Shown piece by piece: positions 3,184-12,740 of a stretch of DNA of 61,675 nucleotides. The DNA comes from an uncultured Bacteroidales bacterium (GTDB lineage: Bacteria > Bacteroidota > Bacteroidia > Bacteroidales > JAFGXI01). Where the stretch lies: contig CAMZKE010000006.1 of the NCBI GenBank assembly GCA_947311115.1, positions 1-61,675 on the forward strand. The letters run 5' to 3'. The notes under the pieces are model-generated. The model saw nothing but the letters and a program-made list of their open reading frames with translations, made no database searches and was not told the origin of the DNA. The stretch's first letter is position 1; every line of letters starts with the position of its first letter. Made by a program: the position numbers and the translations under genes.

Positions 3184-5184
3184 ATGAACTTTAAAGAACA
3201 AATATTGCAAGGTATTCCAAGCGAATTACCACAAAAAAAGGAGTTCGATACAAGTATAAGTCATGCTCCAATAAGAAAAGATATTTTAAACGAAGACGAA
3301 AAAAAATTAGCATTAAAAAATGCACTTCGTTATTTCGACAAAAAACATCATGCCGAATTAGCTGTTGAATTTAAACAAGAATTAGACACTTACGGCAGAA
3401 TTTACATGTATAGGTTTCGCCCTGATTATAAGATAACTGCAAGAAGCATTGAAGATTTTCCATACAAATCGAAACAAGCTGCAGCAATAATGCTTATGAT
3501 TAGCAACAACTTAGACTATGCTATTGCTCAACACCCACACGAACTAATTACTTATGGTGGAAATGGTGCTGTTTTTCAAAATTGGGCTCAGTATTTACTA
3601 ACAATGAAATATTTAGCTAACATGACTGACGAGCAAACACTTACAATGTATTCAGGACACCCTATGGGAGTGTATCCTTCGCATAAAGATGCTCCAAGAG
3701 TTGTAGTTACAAACGGAATGGTAATACCAAACTACTCAAAACCCGACCATTGGGAAAAATTTAACGCACTTGGCGTTTCACAATATGGACAGATGACTGC
3801 CGGCTCGTTTATGTATATTGGCCCACAAGGAATTGTACACGGTACTACAATTACAGTACTTAATGCCGGTCGTATGATTTCTAAAAACGGCGAAGGACTT
3901 GAAGGTAAATTATTTGTAACCGCCGGACTTGGCGGAATGAGTGGTGCTCAGCCAAAAGCGGCTAATATTGCAGGTGTAGTATCTGTAACAGCCGAAATTA
4001 ACGAAACCGCTGCAATAAAACGCCATAAGCAGGGCTGGGTTGATGTTTTAGTTTACAACATTAACGAACTTATTGAAAAAGTTAAACAATCGAAAGCAAA
4101 TAAAGAAGTTGTTTCTTATGCCTATGTTGGCAATATTGTTGATGTATGGGAAGCTTTCGACAAAGCAAATTTATATATCGATTTAGGCTCAGACCAAACA
4201 TCGTTACATAACCCTTGGGCAGGTGGTTACTACCCTGTAGGCATAAGTTATGAAGAGTCTAACGAAATGATGGCTAAAAATCCTGATGAATTTAAAAAAC
4301 AGGTTCAAGAATCGCTTCGTCGCCAAACAAATGCAATAAATAAACACACAGCAAAAGGCACCTACTTTTTCGATTACGGAAATGCTTTTTTACTAGAAGC
4401 ATCGCGTGCCGGAGCCGATATAATGAGCAAAGACGGTAAAAATTTCCGTTACCCATCTTATGTTCAAGACATAATGGGACCAATGTGTTTCGATTATGGT
4501 TTTGGGCCTTTCCGTTGGGTTTGTACATCGTCGTTACCCGAAGATTTAGCACTAACCGATAAAATTGCGACCGATGTTTTAGAAGAAATTATGCAACACT
4601 CTCCTACCGAAATTCAACAACAAATGTCCGATAATATTCAATGGATAAAAGGGGCTCAAGAAAACAAACTTGTTGTTGGTTCGCAAGCACGTATTTTATA
4701 TGCCGATGCCGAAGGACGTATAAAAATTGCCGAAGCTTTTAATAAAGCTGTTGCAGATGGCAGATTAAAAGCTCCCGTAGTACTTGGTCGCGACCATCAC
4801 GATGTATCGGGAACCGATTCTCCTTTTAGAGAAACCTCTAATATTTATGATGGCTCAAGCTTTACAGCTGATATGGCTATACAAAATGTAATTGGCGACT
4901 CTTTCCGTGGTGCTACTTGGGTATCAATTCACAATGGCGGTGGTGTTGGCTGGGGCGAAGTAATTAACGGTGGTTTTGGTATGGTTTTAGATGGCTCTGA
5001 TGATGCAAACCGCAGACTAAAATCAATGCTTTTTTGGGACGTTAATAACGGTATTTCTCGCCGTGCTTGGGCAAGAAACGATGGAGCTTTATTTGCAATT
5101 AAACGTGAAATAGAACGCTCACAAGGTTTACAAGTAACAGTACCTAATATTGCTGATGATAAATTAATTAACAACTTATTTTAA
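3184..5184 (+). CDS. hutU: Urocanate hydratase (urocanase)
   Basis: Converts urocanate to 4-imidazolone-5-propionate, step two of histidine degradation, with tightly bound NAD+. Recognisable landmarks are LITYGGNGAVFQNWAQYL, the MYSGHPMG segment, GPQGIVHGTTITVLNAGR, the nucleotide-binding VTAGLGGMSGAQPKAA and, towards the C-terminus, LGRDHHDVSGTDSPFRET. At 666 residues it is of the longer Bacteroidota type rather than the roughly 555-residue E. coli/Bacillus form. It sits between the RNA methyltransferase (17 nt) and a secreted peptidase (10 nt). The other hut genes (hutH, hutI, ftcD) are not in the window, so the pathway genes must be split if present. Confidence 0.95.
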   Translation: MNFKEQILQGIPSELPQKKEFDTSISHAPIRKDILNEDEKKLALKNALRYFDKKHHAELAVEFKQELDTYGRIYMYRFRPDYKITARSIEDFPYKSKQAAAIMLMISNNLDYAIAQHPHELITYGGNGAVFQNWAQYLLTMKYLANMTDEQTLTMYSGHPMGVYPSHKDAPRVVVTNGMVIPNYSKPDHWEKFNALGVSQYGQMTAGSFMYIGPQGIVHGTTITVLNAGRMISKNGEGLEGKLFVTAGLGGMSGAQPKAANIAGVVSVTAEINETAAIKRHKQGWVDVLVYNINELIEKVKQSKANKEVVSYAYVGNIVDVWEAFDKANLYIDLGSDQTSLHNPWAGGYYPVGISYEESNEMMAKNPDEFKKQVQESLRRQTNAINKHTAKGTYFFDYGNAFLLEASRAGADIMSKDGKNFRYPSYVQDIMGPMCFDYGFGPFRWVCTSSLPEDLALTDKIATDVLEEIMQHSPTEIQQQMSDNIQWIKGAQENKLVVGSQARILYADAEGRIKIAEAFNKAVADGRLKAPVVLGRDHHDVSGTDSPFRETSNIYDGSSFTADMAIQNVIGDSFRGATWVSIHNGGGVGWGEVINGGFGMVLDGSDDANRRLKSMLFWDVNNGISRRAWARNDGALFAIKREIERSQGLQVTVPNIADDKLINNLF

Positions 5185-5194
5185 ATAAATAAAA

Positions 5195-6442
5195 ATGAAA
5201 AAAAGTATAATTTTAGGAGTTGCATTATTAAGCATAAGCTCAATATTTGCACAAAACAAAGACAAAGCTACATTTCAGGTGTACGATAAAGGAGAAAGCT
5301 ATTATTATAGCACAATTTTAAAAGATATAAACTCGGTTGAGGCAACAAAGCAAAAATCGAAAGCATATAAACGCTTTAAAGTTGATGCAACAGGTAAAAA
5401 TTATCCTGCAAAAGTTAATATGTATAAATCTCAATGGCACAACCCAACAATTTCGCAAGGAAGCACCGGTACTTGCTGGGATTTTTCAACCACATCGTTC
5501 TACGAAAGTGAAGAAAAAAGACTCTATAATAAAGAGGTTAAAATTTCGGAAGCGTTTACATTTTATTGCGAATATGTATTAAAAGCCGAAGGTTTTGTTG
5601 AAAGCAGAGGTAAAACAATTTTTGAAGAAGGCTCTGAAGGAAATGCTGTTGCAAGAGTTTACAAACGGTTTGGGGCAATGCCATGGAGTGTTTACAATGG
5701 TTTAAATGGGCAAAAATTTCATTCGCACGATAAAATGTATGCCGAAATGCACAACTATTTAAAGTCGGTTAAAAATACGAATGCGTGGGATAAGGAAGTG
5801 GTTATTTCTACAATAAAATCTATTATGAATCATTATGTTGGCACACCTCCAACAAATTTTAAAGTTGATGGTAAGGAATATACACCTAAAACATATCTCA
5901 AAGATTATCTTAAAATAAATCCTGATGATTATGTTGAAATATTATCGTACAAACAAGCACCTTATTACAAACAATGTTCGTACGATGTTCCTGATAATTG
6001 GTGGAACTCAAAAGAATACTATAATATTCCGCTTGATGAGTTTATGGGTGCAATAAAAAACGCAATAAAAAATGGATATACAATGAGTATTGGTGGCGAT
6101 GTTTCTGAGGCAGGTTTTTTAAATTCTAAGGGCGAACCTAACGTGGCAATAATACCTGACTTTGATATTCCATCAGCATATATTAACGAAGATGCTCGTC
6201 AGTTTCGTTTTTCAAATAAAACCACTACTGACGACCACGGAATGCACCTTGTTGGCTATTACGAGAAAGACGGAAAAACTTGGTATTTAATAAAAGACAG
6301 TAGCTCAGGTTCAAGAAACAACAATATTAATGCTCCTGAATTTGGTTATTATTTCTTTTCAGAAGATTATATAAAACTTAAAATGATGGGCTTTACTGTA
6401 CATAAAGATGCTGTAAAAGATATATTAAAGAAGTTTAACTAA
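5195..6442 (+). CDS. Secreted C1-family cysteine peptidase (PepC/bleomycin-hydrolase-like)
   Basis: A papain-like peptidase expected in the periplasm or at the outer surface. A cleavable signal peptide (about residues 1-19, ending ISSIFAQ) precedes the domain. The oxyanion Gln and nucleophile are in SQGSTGTCWDFST (Cys94). The catalytic His lies in TDDHGMHLVGYY (His348). The third catalytic position reads LIKDSSSG, with Asp368 where papain-like enzymes have Asn (KNSWG). An Asp here may be normal for this Bacteroidota subgroup or may lower activity; a family alignment would decide. At 415 residues it is shorter than cytosolic PepC (about 450). Last gene of the methyltransferase-hutU-peptidase run, followed by a strong terminator. 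Confidence 0.88.
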   Translation: MKKSIILGVALLSISSIFAQNKDKATFQVYDKGESYYYSTILKDINSVEATKQKSKAYKRFKVDATGKNYPAKVNMYKSQWHNPTISQGSTGTCWDFSTTSFYESEEKRLYNKEVKISEAFTFYCEYVLKAEGFVESRGKTIFEEGSEGNAVARVYKRFGAMPWSVYNGLNGQKFHSHDKMYAEMHNYLKSVKNTNAWDKEVVISTIKSIMNHYVGTPPTNFKVDGKEYTPKTYLKDYLKINPDDYVEILSYKQAPYYKQCSYDVPDNWWNSKEYYNIPLDEFMGAIKNAIKNGYTMSIGGDVSEAGFLNSKGEPNVAIIPDFDIPSAYINEDARQFRFSNKTTTDDHGMHLVGYYEKDGKTWYLIKDSSSGSRNNNINAPEFGYYFFSEDYIKLKMMGFTVHKDAVKDILKKFN

Positions 6443-6814: not shown

Positions 6815-7261
6815 TTATTCTTTTACAAAAACCATTTCGCCGCTACCATCTTTTAATGAAATATGAAGTTCTTTATTTACCATAAATAATTCATAAGCTT
6901 GCTTAAGCTCTTTAAAATATTCTTTTTCTGTAGATTCTCCACCACAATACATTTTTGTTGACATAACCGGACTAATCTCAATTATATTCTTTTTTAATTT
7001 ATAGAAAGCAGAGCCTTTATTACAGTCGCTACCTACTCCTAATTTATCATCTTCAGAAAACGAAATAAACGATTTGTGTTTTTTATCTATTATTTTTGTT
7101 TTATCAGCCAAAATAGTTTCTTTCCACAACCATTTATTACCAACTAAATTCTCTTTAGCTGGAACCACCACCCCTTCTTTTGTGTTACTACTATTATTGT
7201 TAAAAATACTACAACTACTTATAAAAAAAATAGGAATAATCAGTATTAATAGTTTTTTCAT
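6815..7261 (-). CDS. META-domain (HslJ-like) lipoprotein
   Basis: 148 residues starting with a lipoprotein signal: hydrophobic stretch then FISSC, with Cys17 the predicted lipidated residue. The following linker is Asn/Ser rich. Residues 38-146 fit the META/HslJ fold: NKWLWKE, the SDCNKGSAFYKL turn, and a late Cys in STKMYCGGEST. META-domain lipoproteins are common envelope proteins; HslJ in E. coli is linked to heat-shock and novobiocin resistance, but no biochemical role is proven for this type. It stands alone between an intergenic element and the end of the five-gene operon on the same strand. A TAAATTTG -7 box lies just upstream. Confidence 0.8.
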   Translation of the reverse strand: MKKLLILIIPIFFISSCSIFNNNSSNTKEGVVVPAKENLVGNKWLWKETILADKTKIIDKKHKSFISFSEDDKLGVGSDCNKGSAFYKLKKNIIEISPVMSTKMYCGGESTEKEYFKELKQAYELFMVNKELHISLKDGSGEMVFVKE

Positions 7262-7359: not shown

Positions 7360-9297
7360 TCATTTAGTAGTTTGAGATTGAATGCCTACTGCTATTTTTA
7401 TGCCTAAATCGGCACATAATTTCAAAATTTCTTTAATTGCTTTGTGCCTACTTTCCAGTTCCTCTTTTCTTGTATCAACATTAAAGGAAATACTTATAAA
7501 TATTTCTATACCATAAACGCCAAAATCATTCATGTATATTCTCGTTACATCATCTTTTGTTGAATCAATCTTATTAATTTTTTCAGTTGCTTTTAATATT
7601 AATTCGTCAAGTTTCTCAATAGGAGTATCATAGGCAACTGATAATTTTGATTTATATCGCCTAAACTTTCTTCTACCTAAGTTATCAATATTATTATCGG
7701 CAAGCCTTCCGTTAGGTATTGTTGCAACAGAATTTAATGGAGTTCTTATTTTTGTTGTTCTTAGCCCAACTTCTTCAACTGTACCTCTTATTTCGTTATT
7801 AACAATATAATCGCCTACAGAAAAAGGTCTATCTGTAAAAATCATTATTGAACCAAAAAAGTTTTTTATAGTGTCTTGAGCTCCAAGAGCAAGAGCAAAT
7901 CCGCCAATAGAAAGACCGGCTAAAACATTCATTAAGTTATACTCTAGCGTCTTTAAAATAAACAGAAAACCTATTATAATTATTATTGTTTTTAGTATTA
8001 ATGAAATAAAAACAAACATTCCAACCTTACTATTTACTTCATCACGTCTGGTAGAAATAAATTTTATTAAATTTACAATATTTATACTTATTAGTGTGGC
8101 ATATATTATTACAATTATTGAAAATACTTTATGAATTATTTGAGTTATATCTATATTAAGTCTAACCGATGGTACATACTCTTGAATTACAATAAAAAAC
8201 AAAATAAAGATACTATAACTAAATAACTTAACAGTTATTTTTAATATTGAATTTTGCTTAAAATATTTTTTAATTACTAATTTAACTATAAAATTTAATG
8301 TCAATAAAAATATCCAAATAGATATAAAAAATATCATCATATATTCTTGCCAAAGTTGTAAATTGGGAATATATTTTGATTTTCCATTACCTGCATATGC
8401 CTTAAATTTGTCTGAGAAACTAAAAATATCATCAGCTGCATCAGAATAAATTCTCTTATGCACACTATATATAAGTTTCGATGTAGCTCTAGAATACAGC
8501 CATTTATCTCCAATTTTAACAAGATAAAGTTCCTTAAATTTGGGGTTGGGGATATATATATGCTTATGAGTAATTGTGTCAATATAATTAGAATCTTTTG
8601 ATAGTGTAGTAAAATCAAAAACCTGTACCGGCGACCCCAAGTATATTTGATTTAACTTAATTGCTAAATCAGCTGCATTAGCTGTATCTTTTTCTCCAAA
8701 ATTAATTGTTTTAGCAGCTATCTCAGGATTAAACAACGAATCGCTTAAAAACATTAAATGACTCATTATAGTATTATAGGGGGTTGAGAGGTTTAATTCC
8801 GGTTTTAATGTGTCAATTATATCAGTTACTTCACTAACAAATTCCTCAATTTCTTTATTAGTATTTTCTGCTCTTAACTTAGCAGGTATAAAAAGAGTGT
8901 TATAAATACTATCAATTTTACTTACTGTTTCTGGTGAATATGCCCATACTTTATTTTTTTTAATTAAATATATTTCAGGTATTTTACTAGACAAAACATA
9001 TTTCTTTTTCGAAAAAATAGTTCCTCGTTTATCAAGTAAATTTTCTGTATTAATTTTTAGCTTTAATAATATATCTTTTAATTTTATTATTAAAGCTTTT
9101 TTATGTGCTTGTGAATATTTAACATCACCTAAAGTATAGACAGCAATATTAGGGTTATAGTTTCCTTGTTTTAAGAAATTTAAATGAGATTCAACTGTTT
9201 CTTTGGGTGTTGAATTTTTAAATTCGATTTTTTCTTGTGAATTTCCAATTAATGAAAATCCAAGAAAAAAAATTGTAATAATTAATTTATTTCTCAT
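7360..9297 (-). CDS. MscS-family mechanosensitive channel with periplasmic domain
   Basis: 645 residues. A signal peptide (residues 1-20, LIGNSQ) leads a roughly 300-residue extracytoplasmic region containing two similar segments (NPNIAVYTLGDVKYSQA and NPEIAAKTINFGEKDTANAA, each followed by a segment rich in KxxYLIKxxxKWAYS / KELYLVKIGDKWLYS). Four or five transmembrane helices follow (about 320-470). The MscS core begins with the pore-lining LAGLSIGGFALALGAQDT, then IKNFFGSIMIFTDRPFSVGD and a cytoplasmic beta domain (RTPLNSVATIPNGRLADN). Such channels release solutes on membrane tension. Last gene of the five-gene operon; 1 nt after the K+ channel gene. The large duplicated N-terminal domain is not one I can name. 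Confidence 0.88.
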   Translation of the reverse strand: MRNKLIITIFFLGFSLIGNSQEKIEFKNSTPKETVESHLNFLKQGNYNPNIAVYTLGDVKYSQAHKKALIIKLKDILLKLKINTENLLDKRGTIFSKKKYVLSSKIPEIYLIKKNKVWAYSPETVSKIDSIYNTLFIPAKLRAENTNKEIEEFVSEVTDIIDTLKPELNLSTPYNTIMSHLMFLSDSLFNPEIAAKTINFGEKDTANAADLAIKLNQIYLGSPVQVFDFTTLSKDSNYIDTITHKHIYIPNPKFKELYLVKIGDKWLYSRATSKLIYSVHKRIYSDAADDIFSFSDKFKAYAGNGKSKYIPNLQLWQEYMMIFFISIWIFLLTLNFIVKLVIKKYFKQNSILKITVKLFSYSIFILFFIVIQEYVPSVRLNIDITQIIHKVFSIIVIIYATLISINIVNLIKFISTRRDEVNSKVGMFVFISLILKTIIIIIGFLFILKTLEYNLMNVLAGLSIGGFALALGAQDTIKNFFGSIMIFTDRPFSVGDYIVNNEIRGTVEEVGLRTTKIRTPLNSVATIPNGRLADNNIDNLGRRKFRRYKSKLSVAYDTPIEKLDELILKATEKINKIDSTKDDVTRIYMNDFGVYGIEIFISISFNVDTRKEELESRHKAIKEILKLCADLGIKIAVGIQSQTTK

Positions 9298-9298
9298 A

Positions 9299-9943
9299 TT
9301 ACTTATTCGTTTTATTTATAAATTTACCAAGAATAAATGCTATTATTAAAGCCAAATATAATTGAGACATAACACCAAAAAATATACTCAGCGAACGTGC
9401 AACAGGGCTTACCGGTAAAACATCGCCATACCCAATTGTTGAAATAGTTATATAGCTATAATACATAATTTCACTTACTTTTTCGGTATTAAGGTCATTG
9501 CCAAAAGAAATTGCATTCGGATTATTTGCAATTACTATTAAATTTAAAAAAAATAATATTACACCTATAAGTAAATAGCCACATATAGTTTCAATAATAA
9601 CTCTTGAATTTATAAATTTACTTCTTACAATTTGCCTTATCATTACACCAGTAACAATTAATAACACAACAGTGGAAAATGCATATGTGAAATATTTTAT
9701 TATACCTATATTAACAAAATGCGTAAGCCATATTGTTGATATAGAAACAAGAAGTAAATACCTAAGAAATTTTGTTTTCTTATCAATTATTGAAAAAATT
9801 GAAAATAACATAACTGAATATGATATTTCAAAAAGTGCTGAATATATATTATGCCCATAAAGAATAGGTACAATAAAAGCAAAAATAAATATACTTATTA
9901 GTAAATAAATACTTTTTGGTATTTTCCTGATTATTCTTAGCAT
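9299..9943 (-). CDS. Potassium channel family protein (TIGYGD selectivity filter)
   Basis: 214 residues, almost entirely membrane. About five hydrophobic segments (near 13-30, 35-52, 62-80, 84-104, 117-140) precede a pore loop TISTIGYGDVLPVSP (about 165-180) and a final helix (182-205). TIGYGD is a K+ selectivity filter, so each chain contributes one filter and a tetramer is expected. No RCK/TrkA regulatory domain is attached. It lies 1 nt from both neighbours (FadL-type barrel gene upstream, MscS gene downstream), so these gene products are almost certainly made together. Coupling of ion flux and turgor response with the MscS channel is inference. Confidence 0.88.
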   Translation of the reverse strand: MLRIIRKIPKSIYLLISIFIFAFIVPILYGHNIYSALFEISYSVMLFSIFSIIDKKTKFLRYLLLVSISTIWLTHFVNIGIIKYFTYAFSTVVLLIVTGVMIRQIVRSKFINSRVIIETICGYLLIGVILFFLNLIVIANNPNAISFGNDLNTEKVSEIMYYSYITISTIGYGDVLPVSPVARSLSIFFGVMSQLYLALIIAFILGKFINKTNK

Positions 9944-9944
9944 A

Positions 9945-11357
9945 TTAAAAATTTATTGAAAAACCTAAAAACAAACCTAATGAATTTATTGTATAAATCA
10001 TATTTTTATTATTTATTCCAACTATATTATACATGCTTTTATTTTCTGTTGTATTATCTTTTTTACCATAAGAATACTGAAACCCAAGAATAAACTTAGA
10101 CCTTTTGTATTTAAAATTAGACCCTAAAGTAAAATGATACAAGCTGTTATGTATGTTTTGTATTTCTTTAATATTTTTAAATTCTCCGGTACTTGACACA
10201 TTATACGCATTAAAATCGGTTCTAAACCCAAGTATTAAATCAAAATTATCATTCAATATTTTTTTATAGCCAACAGCATAATTTACAATAGTTTTTGCAC
10301 CGTATTTATACGATGTTAAATGCGTTCCACCGGGATAATTATCCTCTTCACTTTTGACCACTTTAGTACCATCAATCATCAAATAAGTTGGTGTTTTATA
10401 AAAATATTCAAAAGTAAAATATAATTGTGATTTATGCTCATTCATATACACTACACCTCCAATTGCAATAGAAAAAGGATGTTTTGCCTTAACCTCTCTA
10501 AATTTAGAGTCTTCGCTAACACTAAAATTGTTAACAATTAAATTAGTATCGGTATTATTACTTACACTTTGCCTATACTTTACATCGCTATTACCAAATA
10601 ACTTTAATGATGGAGTGCTTATATTAACCCCAAAAGAAAAATTTTTCACTTTATATCTAAACCCGAATTTACCCAATATTCTTACATCGTATAATGCTAT
10701 ACGTTCAGATCTATCTGTTATTATTTGATAATTATTCGTATCTGATAATGAGTAATCATCAGAACCAATAATTGAATATTGATAAATAGAGTATAATAAA
10801 TTTTTAACTGATATAAATCCACTAACCCCTATACTTAGTCTATTGTTTATTTGATATGAAATACCCTCACCACCCCAATAATCGTTGTATTCATTATAAT
10901 AATCGTAACTAGTTTTTGTAGTTTCCTCTGTATTATTATTAAAAAAATTAGAAGATTTCTCATCAAATGCACTAAGCGATTTATAGTTTGAACTTTTAGT
11001 AAAAATTGCAAGCTGAAAACTCAAATTTCTGTTTTTTTTAGAGCGATATATATATGAAACAAACCTAGGCTGAACCCTAAAGCTTGATTTAGTTACATCG
11101 TTTTTCTCTCCAATAATATTCTTAAATGATTCACTATTTAATTGAAAAAGGTTAACATTTAACATAATTTTTTTTTCTTCAATTTCAGATATTCCGGCCG
11201 GATTATAATAAATTGAAGTAATATTTGAGTTTCCTCCAACAACAGCTCCTGCCAATAACGATGCTTCAGTATTAAAACTAGTTGACCAATACCTATCTTC
11301 TTGTGCATAAATTACAAGTGACACTACTACTAATAATATTATAAAAAAATGCTTCAT
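9945..11357 (-). CDS. Outer-membrane FadL/OMPP1-type barrel protein
   Basis: 470 residues with a signal peptide (LVIYAQ, about 1-18). The mature N-terminus fits FadL/TodX (OMPP1) transporters: EASLLAGAVVGGNSNITSIYYNPAGIS, the Asn-Pro-Ala-Gly motif following the plug region. Alternating aromatic strands fill the rest and the chain ends in GLFLGFSINF, an outer-membrane C-terminal signature. Members import hydrophobic molecules; the substrate here is unknown. Third gene of the five-gene operon (6 nt after the BamA-like gene, 1 nt before the K+ channel gene). Confidence 0.82.
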   Translation of the reverse strand: MKHFFIILLVVVSLVIYAQEDRYWSTSFNTEASLLAGAVVGGNSNITSIYYNPAGISEIEEKKIMLNVNLFQLNSESFKNIIGEKNDVTKSSFRVQPRFVSYIYRSKKNRNLSFQLAIFTKSSNYKSLSAFDEKSSNFFNNNTEETTKTSYDYYNEYNDYWGGEGISYQINNRLSIGVSGFISVKNLLYSIYQYSIIGSDDYSLSDTNNYQIITDRSERIALYDVRILGKFGFRYKVKNFSFGVNISTPSLKLFGNSDVKYRQSVSNNTDTNLIVNNFSVSEDSKFREVKAKHPFSIAIGGVVYMNEHKSQLYFTFEYFYKTPTYLMIDGTKVVKSEEDNYPGGTHLTSYKYGAKTIVNYAVGYKKILNDNFDLILGFRTDFNAYNVSSTGEFKNIKEIQNIHNSLYHFTLGSNFKYKRSKFILGFQYSYGKKDNTTENKSMYNIVGINNKNMIYTINSLGLFLGFSINF

Positions 11358-11363
11358 GAATAA

Positions 11364-12467
11364 TTAAAATGCTTCATTAAAATTAATATAAAAACCTGAC
11401 GTATTATTACCAAAACCTAAATCAAAACGAACATTCATTCTTTCTTGCACCTCTATTCTATATCCTACTCCCCAATTTGGTATAGCATATTTTATATCGG
11501 TATAATCTTTAGCTATTGTTCCAACTCCTGCCCATAAAACTATTCCATCAGTCATTTTCAACAACTTAAGTTTTCTATTAAACATATGCCTGTACTCTAA
11601 AATATTATACAACATCATATTATCTCTATATTGTCCCCAAGTATAACCACGCAAATCAAACGGAGTACCTATTTGTGATAGTTCGGAGTAAGGAGCATCT
11701 TTTGTTACGTGCCTATACCTTGTTTGAAAAGCAAAAACACCTTTAAACAAATTAATATATTTATACATTCTTATATCAATATCACCTAAAAAATATTTGT
11801 TATCGCCACTCATTAAATTACTAAAATATATTGCAGTATAACTAATATAAACGCCTTTATATGCATTAACAGGCACATCTCTACTATCGTACTGCCCGGT
11901 TAAGCCAATACCAATATTAGTATTATTCTCACCAAATTTTATTATGTACTCATCGTTTTTCATCATTTCTGAGGCATCAGAAACAATTGTTTGATTAAAA
12001 TCGATAGCTAAACCAGTATAAAAATTACGAACAATACGATATAAAATTTTAGGATTTATTTGCCACCATAAACGATGATATGCTGTACTATCACCTTTTT
12101 CTGTTTCAGATGCTTTTAGGTAACCTACGCCCCAATAATTATCGGGCATATCTTTAAAATATAAATTTGAATATATTCTAATTTTATCTTGTTTCCAAAA
12201 AGAAGTAAGAATACCACTAGCAACTATTGAACCTTTAGTTGAATACCCAATAGATACTGGAAATGAAGATTTTTGAATTAAATAATCATTTTTTTGGGTT
12301 TTAAAACCAAATATACCACTTAATGAAATCATTCCTCCAAGTTCAGGTGTATATGCAGGGGCAATTATCCAATTAAATTTTACATTTTTTAAAGTATCAG
12401 TATTGTTTTGAGCAATAATATTTACTGACAAAAATAATATTAGTAATATGTTTATTATATTTTTCAT
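11364..12467 (-). CDS. BamA/TamA-family (surface antigen D15) outer-membrane protein
   Basis: 367 residues: a signal peptide (NIIAQ, about 1-19) and then a barrel domain of the Omp85 type with no visible POTRA domains. Recognisable points are PAYTPELGGMISLSG near the N-terminus, GLTGQYDSRDVPVNAYKGVY (the Omp85 'DtRd' region), and QIGTPFDLRGYTWGQYRDNM, which contains the conserved RGY-type loop motif. The end YINFNEAF closes in Phe. POTRA-less Omp85 proteins are common in Bacteroidota and their role is poorly known (secretion or anchoring of a partner). Spaced 6 nt from both neighbours in the operon. Confidence 0.8.
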   Translation of the reverse strand: MKNIINILLILFLSVNIIAQNNTDTLKNVKFNWIIAPAYTPELGGMISLSGIFGFKTQKNDYLIQKSSFPVSIGYSTKGSIVASGILTSFWKQDKIRIYSNLYFKDMPDNYWGVGYLKASETEKGDSTAYHRLWWQINPKILYRIVRNFYTGLAIDFNQTIVSDASEMMKNDEYIIKFGENNTNIGIGLTGQYDSRDVPVNAYKGVYISYTAIYFSNLMSGDNKYFLGDIDIRMYKYINLFKGVFAFQTRYRHVTKDAPYSELSQIGTPFDLRGYTWGQYRDNMMLYNILEYRHMFNRKLKLLKMTDGIVLWAGVGTIAKDYTDIKYAIPNWGVGYRIEVQERMNVRFDLGFGNNTSGFYINFNEAF

Positions 12468-12473
12468 TTATTT

Positions 12474-12740
12474 TTAAAACCTATAGCCTATTTGAATTAA
12501 ATAACTAAAACCAACATAATTGAAAGCTAATTTACCTGAAGCATTTATTTCTTGACCATCTAAAATTAAACTACCTCCAGGAATATACTTTTCTAACATT
12601 TTTGCCCCCATAACAAACATTGGGGTAATATTCCACCTAATAGTATTTTTTATATTTGAATGAGCTAAGCGATCTATTTCTTGTCCATAAATAATAGTAC
12701 TCATTAAAGAAAAAGCAATAAAAAATATAATATACTTCAT
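12474..12740 (-). CDS. Small exported protein, unknown function
   Basis: 88 residues. A clear signal peptide (MSTIIYGQ, cleavage near residue 20) leaves a mature chain of about 68 residues. The chain ends GFSYLIQIGYRF, an amphipathic strand with terminal Phe like the last strand of an outer-membrane barrel; 68 residues is too short for a barrel on its own. It could oligomerise, complement the downstream Omp85-type barrel, or be the remnant of a longer barrel. First gene of the five-gene operon. I do not recognise the family. Confidence 0.6.
   Translation of the reverse strand: MKYIIFFIAFSLMSTIIYGQEIDRLAHSNIKNTIRWNITPMFVMGAKMLEKYIPGGSLILDGQEINASGKLAFNYVGFSYLIQIGYRF

Follow-up and report, generated by a model that had tools for sequence, protein, structure and literature searches.

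The window analysed here is a stretch of 61,675 nucleotides from an uncultured Bacteroidales bacterium (GenBank assembly GCA_947311115.1, contig CAMZKE010000006.1, positions 1 to 61,675), and the subject of this study is a group of five genes that lie close together in it. Five consecutive open reading frames (ORFs) on the minus strand span positions 7360-12740 and are separated by gaps of 6, 6, 1 and 1 nt. From the first to the last, they correspond to an 88-residue remnant of an outer-membrane barrel gene, an Omp85-type barrel, a FadL-type barrel, a predicted K+ channel and a YnaI-like channel of the MscS superfamily. When the ORFs of the window were mapped in a simple way (44 in all), gaps of 10 nt or less were found between 8 of the 26 pairs of same-strand neighbors, and the four consecutive junctions of the five-gene run formed the longest tight series. 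The compactness of the run, including the four gaps, had been given in a preliminary description of this DNA and is borne out by the ORF coordinates. Because of the tight spacing, the five genes are likely to be co-transcribed, which falls short of the near certainty of co-expression claimed in that description. The single promoter-like site that it reported was not recovered in our scans. A sigma-70 scan of the window returned 68 sites against 63.1 expected from shuffling, by which no promoter is demonstrated, and a pattern scan found no full TTTG-N17-23-TAnnTTTG site, the promoter pattern of the Bacteroidota type, between positions 5000 and 16500. Only an isolated TATTTTTG was seen by eye at 12767-12760, about 20 nt ahead of the first ORF.

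The last two genes of the run are channel genes. The upstream one (9299-9943) is predicted to encode a K+ channel of 214 residues with about six hydrophobic segments and no cytoplasmic regulatory domain. Its product matches Ion_trans_2 (PF07885; E 2e-9, 37.7 bits, cut-off 22.5), and the TxGYGD selectivity filter is present as TIGYGD at residues 169-174 (9422-9439). The downstream gene (7360-9297) encodes a protein of 645 residues, whose core matches MS_channel_2nd (E 2.5e-21) and the MS_channel beta domain (PF00924; 76 bits, cut-off 20.2), which places it in the MscS superfamily. Its best score against the NCBIfam MscS equivalogs is 76.2 bits, below the curated cut-off of 400. Both genes had been called K+ and MscS channels in the preliminary description, and the Pfam matches and the predicted filter agree with these calls.

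When a profile of 50 MscS sequences was compared with PDB, the MscS/YnaI chimera (E 1e-56) and YnaI (E 2e-56) came out on top. In the AlphaFold model of the MscS protein (mean pLDDT 83.1, pTM 0.57), five helices are found at residues 315-345, 350-378, 382-418, 422-450 and 455-489, and YnaI has the same number of membrane helices. The best fold matches of the model are YnaI chains (Z 14.6-16), with large rmsd values (9.8-13.8) and with alignments that extend over residues 313-645 in the longest cases and over the C-terminal half only in others. With YnaI as the nearest solved relative and with five model helices, the protein resembles the YnaI type. YnaI has a filter ring formed by methionine M158, according to PMC6019658. 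Within the pore-helix segment SIGGFALALGAQD (residues 463-475, 7873-7911), L471 aligns with M158 and Q474 aligns with K161 of YnaI. Leucine and glutamine are found at these two positions in all the 50 aligned sequences, and a methionine ring of the M158 type is absent. A YnaI-type cation selectivity was considered and can be ruled out on sequence, there being no methionine at the filter position. Lacking this ring, the product is judged to be a YnaI-like scaffold without the methionine filter of YnaI and is not classed as YnaI.

Ahead of the core, the MscS protein carries a predicted periplasmic extension (residues 22-306, 8380-9234) that has no name in Pfam. The extension contains two copies of one unit, repeat 1 at residues 23-139 (8881-9231) and repeat 2 at residues 165-287 (8437-8805), and the second is the copy matched by single-copy homologs. 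Self-alignment of the extension gives a local score of 141, compared with at most 55 among 500 shuffles, so that the unnamed periplasmic domain of about 300 residues with an internal duplication, noticed earlier in the bare sequence, is confirmed. In the predicted structure of the extension (mean pLDDT 87.1, pTM 0.52), the repeat unit consists of helices and a small sheet. No trusted match to the extension was found in Pfam or among PDB sequences; scattered Pfam hits, each made by one or two members, had E values of at least 0.009 and were regarded as noise. Likewise, NCBIfam gave no match across the extension of the window protein, and Foldseek returned nothing below E 0.9. A second fold comparison gave a best Z of 5.0 (4qan, rmsd 21.6) and Z of 4.1-4.5 for BB0238 and YbjP, all of which are under the noise level stated for the tool. 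An NTF2/cystatin-like fold is only a lead.

The extension is carried by 26 of the 168 genomes in a sample of the phylum, the genome of the window included, where it is found at one locus. The other 25 carriers have open frames of 535-625 residues, the size of single-copy channels. Five of 86 homologous ORFs (L054, L073, L077, L106 and L126) are longer than 640 residues and align across all or most of the two copies, so the duplication is not unique to the window. The single-copy channel gene lies directly after a same-strand gene (position -1) for an exported protein of about 900 residues in 62 of the 79 mapped loci, mostly from Cytophagales, and this is a context different from that in the window. 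A malate-dehydrogenase-like gene, recognized by eye, is found at position -2 of the single-copy mscS in 40 of these 79 loci.

We then compared the window with 87 other mscS loci (the best 80 of 226, plus seven), some of which end at contig edges, and ran the K+ channel, Omp85 and FadL profiles on their ORFs. In one of them, L054 from Bacteroidetes bacterium 4572_112, the K+ channel and MscS genes are adjacent, 12 nt apart. Each of the two products is 42% identical to its counterpart in the window, which for the MscS holds along the whole protein with its two repeats. Because the pair is adjacent in L054 as well, the osmotic or ion-sensing role that the preliminary description had proposed for the whole run gains support for its K+ channel-MscS part.

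The reading that we favor, with about even confidence, is that the run combines a K+ channel-MscS bicistron for osmotic release of K+ and solutes with barrel genes that were joined to it in this lineage, one of which is now broken. The functional core would be only two genes, one for a small K+ channel and, after it, one for a tension-gated MscS of the YnaI-like kind, and its role would most likely be turgor relief upon osmotic downshift. The MscS pore would open for small solutes when tension in the membrane acts on the five-helix paddle, and the K+ channel would conduct K+ at the same membrane. The periplasmic repeats, which would number 14 in a heptameric channel, could make up a cap that is in contact with the cell wall or senses it and that thereby tunes gating. 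The Omp85-like and FadL-like genes would have joined upstream in this lineage, where they are probably co-transcribed with the core, and their products would work in the outer membrane independently of the channels. The first ORF would be the ruin of one more barrel gene.

Several observations weigh against this reading. Adjacency of the pair is known from one other genome, and 86 of the 87 other mscS loci have no K+ channel gene beside mscS. No other genome among the 393 of the order holds both the K+ channel and this MscS. The next closest MscS, from genome G390, is truncated at a contig edge and is 47% identical within the extension; the gene upstream of it is divergent and does not encode a K+ channel. 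Relatives of the K+ channel are present in 50 of the 393 genomes (here and below, the genome of the window is counted), many of them matching over the pore only. Twenty K+ channel loci (12 + 8) were inspected, and L054 is the one at which this MscS adjoins; the other 19 are without it. RND efflux genes adjoin the K+ channel relative in five of the 20 loci, recognized as ACR_tran by Pfam in L176 and L177 and by eye in L178, L188 and L225, and a metallo-beta-lactamase-fold gene does so in four, recognized by Pfam in L180 and by eye in L181, L187 and L189. The K+ channel relatives at these last four loci come from one family (f67).

Such a preference for other partners would be expected if the run were incidental packing, that is, five envelope genes without relation to one another that lie in a compact, A+T-rich region and share one transcript and no common task, with the L054 pair being due to chance or a phylogenetic relic. 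The relatives of each gene are mostly scattered, and the first ORF is decayed, both of which are in line with this explanation. The five-gene order was not found at any other locus examined, though metagenome collections beyond those loci may hold close relatives, and a conserved order, for which the preliminary description had called for a gene-neighborhood search, is thus confined to the K+ channel-MscS pair, which recurs once. The same description held that relatives in unrelated places would make the proximity incidental, and for the barrels this is largely what was found: relatives of Omp85 and FadL are present in none of the 87 other mscS loci, and the genome of L054 has a FadL relative (35% identity) and a weak Omp85 relative, both on other contigs. 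On the other side, the run is the longest tight series in the window, and the K+ channel and MscS genes are still adjacent in L054 at only 42% identity. We regard incidental packing as possible but doubtful.

The two barrel genes that precede the channels each have relatives scattered over mostly unrelated loci. The second gene of the run (11364-12467) encodes a protein of 367 residues, which by Pfam, alignment and profile search is probably a barrel of the Omp85 superfamily without POTRA domains. This agrees with the earlier call of an Omp85 barrel, though the match to PF01103 (E 4e-5, 23.7 bits) lies just below the 24-bit cut-off. The protein scores 60 bits against the NCBIfam model Omp85_fam, which has a cut-off of 200, and a profile of 19 sequences of this type matches residues 484-675 of 9ccg, a POTRA domain-containing protein (E 1.3e-7). 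An LRGY motif (11643-11654) stands in place of the L6 (V/L)RG(F/Y) motif of Omp85, and its RGY is invariant in the 19 aligned sequences. A Pfam scan found no POTRA domain in the protein, and the roughly 30 residues that precede the barrel are too few for one. Omp85-type relatives are present in 107 of the 393 genomes of the order and occupy varied loci. The third gene (9945-11357) encodes a protein of 470 residues that is assigned to the FadL/OmpP1 type through its family. PF03349 is matched by 6 of the 14 family members (best E 2e-7), which supports the earlier FadL call at the level of the family; the window protein itself has no Pfam family match. The match to 3dwo, a solved FadL-like outer membrane protein, is weak (E 0.065). 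FadL-type relatives are present in 29 of the 393 genomes, and those inspected sit at unrelated loci.

The remaining points against a bicistron with separately acquired barrels come from genomes in which the K+ channel and the barrels are found together. In genome G380, one tight cluster on contig C21 (L176:5690-9209) encodes a K+ channel, a protein with an adenylate/guanylate cyclase domain, a small protein resembling a barrel and an Omp85, and it comes after an RND operon with hardly any gaps. A distant FadL relative is located about 7 kb off on the opposite strand, and distant relatives of three of the families are found within about 12 kb. Because the matches are weak (23% identity for Omp85 and 24% for FadL) and MscS is missing, G380 represents a similar mix and not the same operon; since its K+ channel shares an operon with Omp85 and a small barrel, linkage to barrels may nevertheless not be pure accident. 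An Omp85 relative also lies within 5 kb of the K+ channel at two further loci (L174 and L175), not in one run. Furthermore, the K+ channel and FadL co-occur in 17 genomes (3.5 expected) and in 10 families (2.0 expected, with stricter K+ channel hits and a total of 118 families inferred from the highest label), figures that ignore lifestyle and genome size.

These results, together with the tight gene spacing, could be explained by a co-regulated osmotic or envelope stress regulon, in which the same stress would induce all the genes for separate jobs, solute release inside and lipid or hydrophobic uptake and a barrel-linked function outside, with no physical contact between the products. However, a shared lifestyle may lie behind the co-occurrence, and relatives of fadL and kch are found on one contig in only 1 of the 17 genomes that have both (G380). 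We consider a regulon of this kind unlikely.

The first ORF (12474-12740) had been described as a small exported protein. Its 88 residues have matches in two genomes besides its own among 178 genomes searched. The better match, in G054 (E 8e-7), is to the start of a complete barrel protein of 249 residues (L206:79-825), which itself matches DUF3575 (PF12099; 25.7 bits, cut-off 21.1), and the other one (G036, E 0.009) is marginal. Alignment of its two ends reveals a barrel gene of the DUF3575 type with an internal deletion. Its N-terminal part (residues 1-49, 12594-12740), comprising the signal peptide and a first segment with KNTIRWNITPM, aligns to the start of the 249-residue protein (50% identity over 42 residues; score 99, shuffle maximum 39), and its C-terminal part (residues 54-88, 12477-12581), with the terminal GYRF, aligns to the end (37% over 35 residues; score 69, shuffle maximum 42; 1000 shuffles for each alignment). 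About 160 middle residues have been lost in frame relative to a barrel of about 250 residues. An independent small exported protein was rejected because both ends of the ORF match the ends of the DUF3575 barrel. Judging from these alignments, the ORF cannot make a complete barrel of this type and is most simply interpreted as a decayed gene, though it may have taken on some new small function. No full-length DUF3575 paralog was found in the genome of the window. Among 12 Omp85 relatives with a listed upstream neighbor, two (L176 and L182) come after a same-strand small exported protein. Neither of these proteins is related to the 88-residue ORF by BLAST; Pfam gives a weak barrel match under the cut-off for that of L176 (E 0.001) and none for that of L182.

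The loss of this proposed partner also bears on the trans-envelope assembly of five parts that had been suggested for the run, in which the periplasmic repeats of MscS would bind an outer-membrane barrel and couple tension or ions across both membranes. The extension is predicted to be secreted and is duplicated, one repeat weakly resembles the TolC-bound lipoprotein YbjP in fold (Z 4.1-4.2), and the G380 operon combines a K+ channel with a small barrel and Omp85. However, the YbjP match is under the noise level named for the tool, no barrel is encoded at the 87 other mscS loci, the duplicated MscS of L054 has no linked barrel, and what was proposed as a partner of 88 residues is the remnant of a barrel. 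Supported neither by gene order nor by fold comparison, such an assembly appears very improbable. The same low probability is given to a more specific arrangement, in which the duplicated domain would dock to the outer membrane or cell wall, with MscS as a tethered sensor, a barrel as anchor and the K+ channel as electrical partner. A five-part machine thus gives way to a smaller and testable idea, the pairing of a K+ channel with a mechanosensitive channel.

Downstream of mscS, after 98 nt, the window contains a gene for a META-domain lipoprotein-like protein on the minus strand (6815-7261). Just ahead of its start, TAAATTTG was seen by eye and may serve this gene as a separate promoter element. 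This gene was considered as a sixth member of the operon, which is not claimed in view of the 98-nt gap and of TAAATTTG. Farther away, the product of a plus-strand gene (5195-6442) has a signal peptide and resembles C1 peptidases of the papain family; a relative with 37% identity is encoded close to a different MscS gene in this genome (L005).

In the open-access literature searched, we recognized no paper on a K+ channel-MscS operon or on this MscS extension, and the comparison with known systems is made gene by gene. In PMC4104836, Omp85 proteins without an N-terminal domain form a 'noNterm' class. The window protein is like this class in its probable Omp85 barrel and in lacking POTRA domains, and it carries the LRGY motif; it differs in sharing an operon with a FadL-type barrel and two channels. 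The FadL-type family resembles the FadL/OmpP1/TodX barrels of PF03349 through 6 of its 14 members, and the window protein differs in falling below the threshold itself. According to PMC4005912, MscS homologs may carry periplasmic domains, whose purpose is an open question there. The window MscS is like those homologs in having a secreted domain before the core and in the restricted taxonomic range of this domain. It differs in that the domain is duplicated and that the extension spans several families, beyond one class within the phylum, compared with close species only in the homologs described there. This unnamed periplasmic domain, common in one phylum, thus bears on why MscS homologs carry such domains. 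YnaI of Escherichia coli, an MscS-family channel of low conductance, is like the window MscS in profile, in fold and in the five membrane helices of the model, and the window protein adds a signal peptide and a 285-residue periplasmic extension and has L471 in place of the M158 ring described in PMC6019658. Finally, MscK of E. coli, a member of the MscS family that depends on K+ (PMC9653487), resembles the window pair in that an MscS core links K+ and mechanosensing. The window MscS matches MscK only at E 1.3e-7, over the core, and the K+ element, in contrast to that of MscK, is here a separate channel gene.

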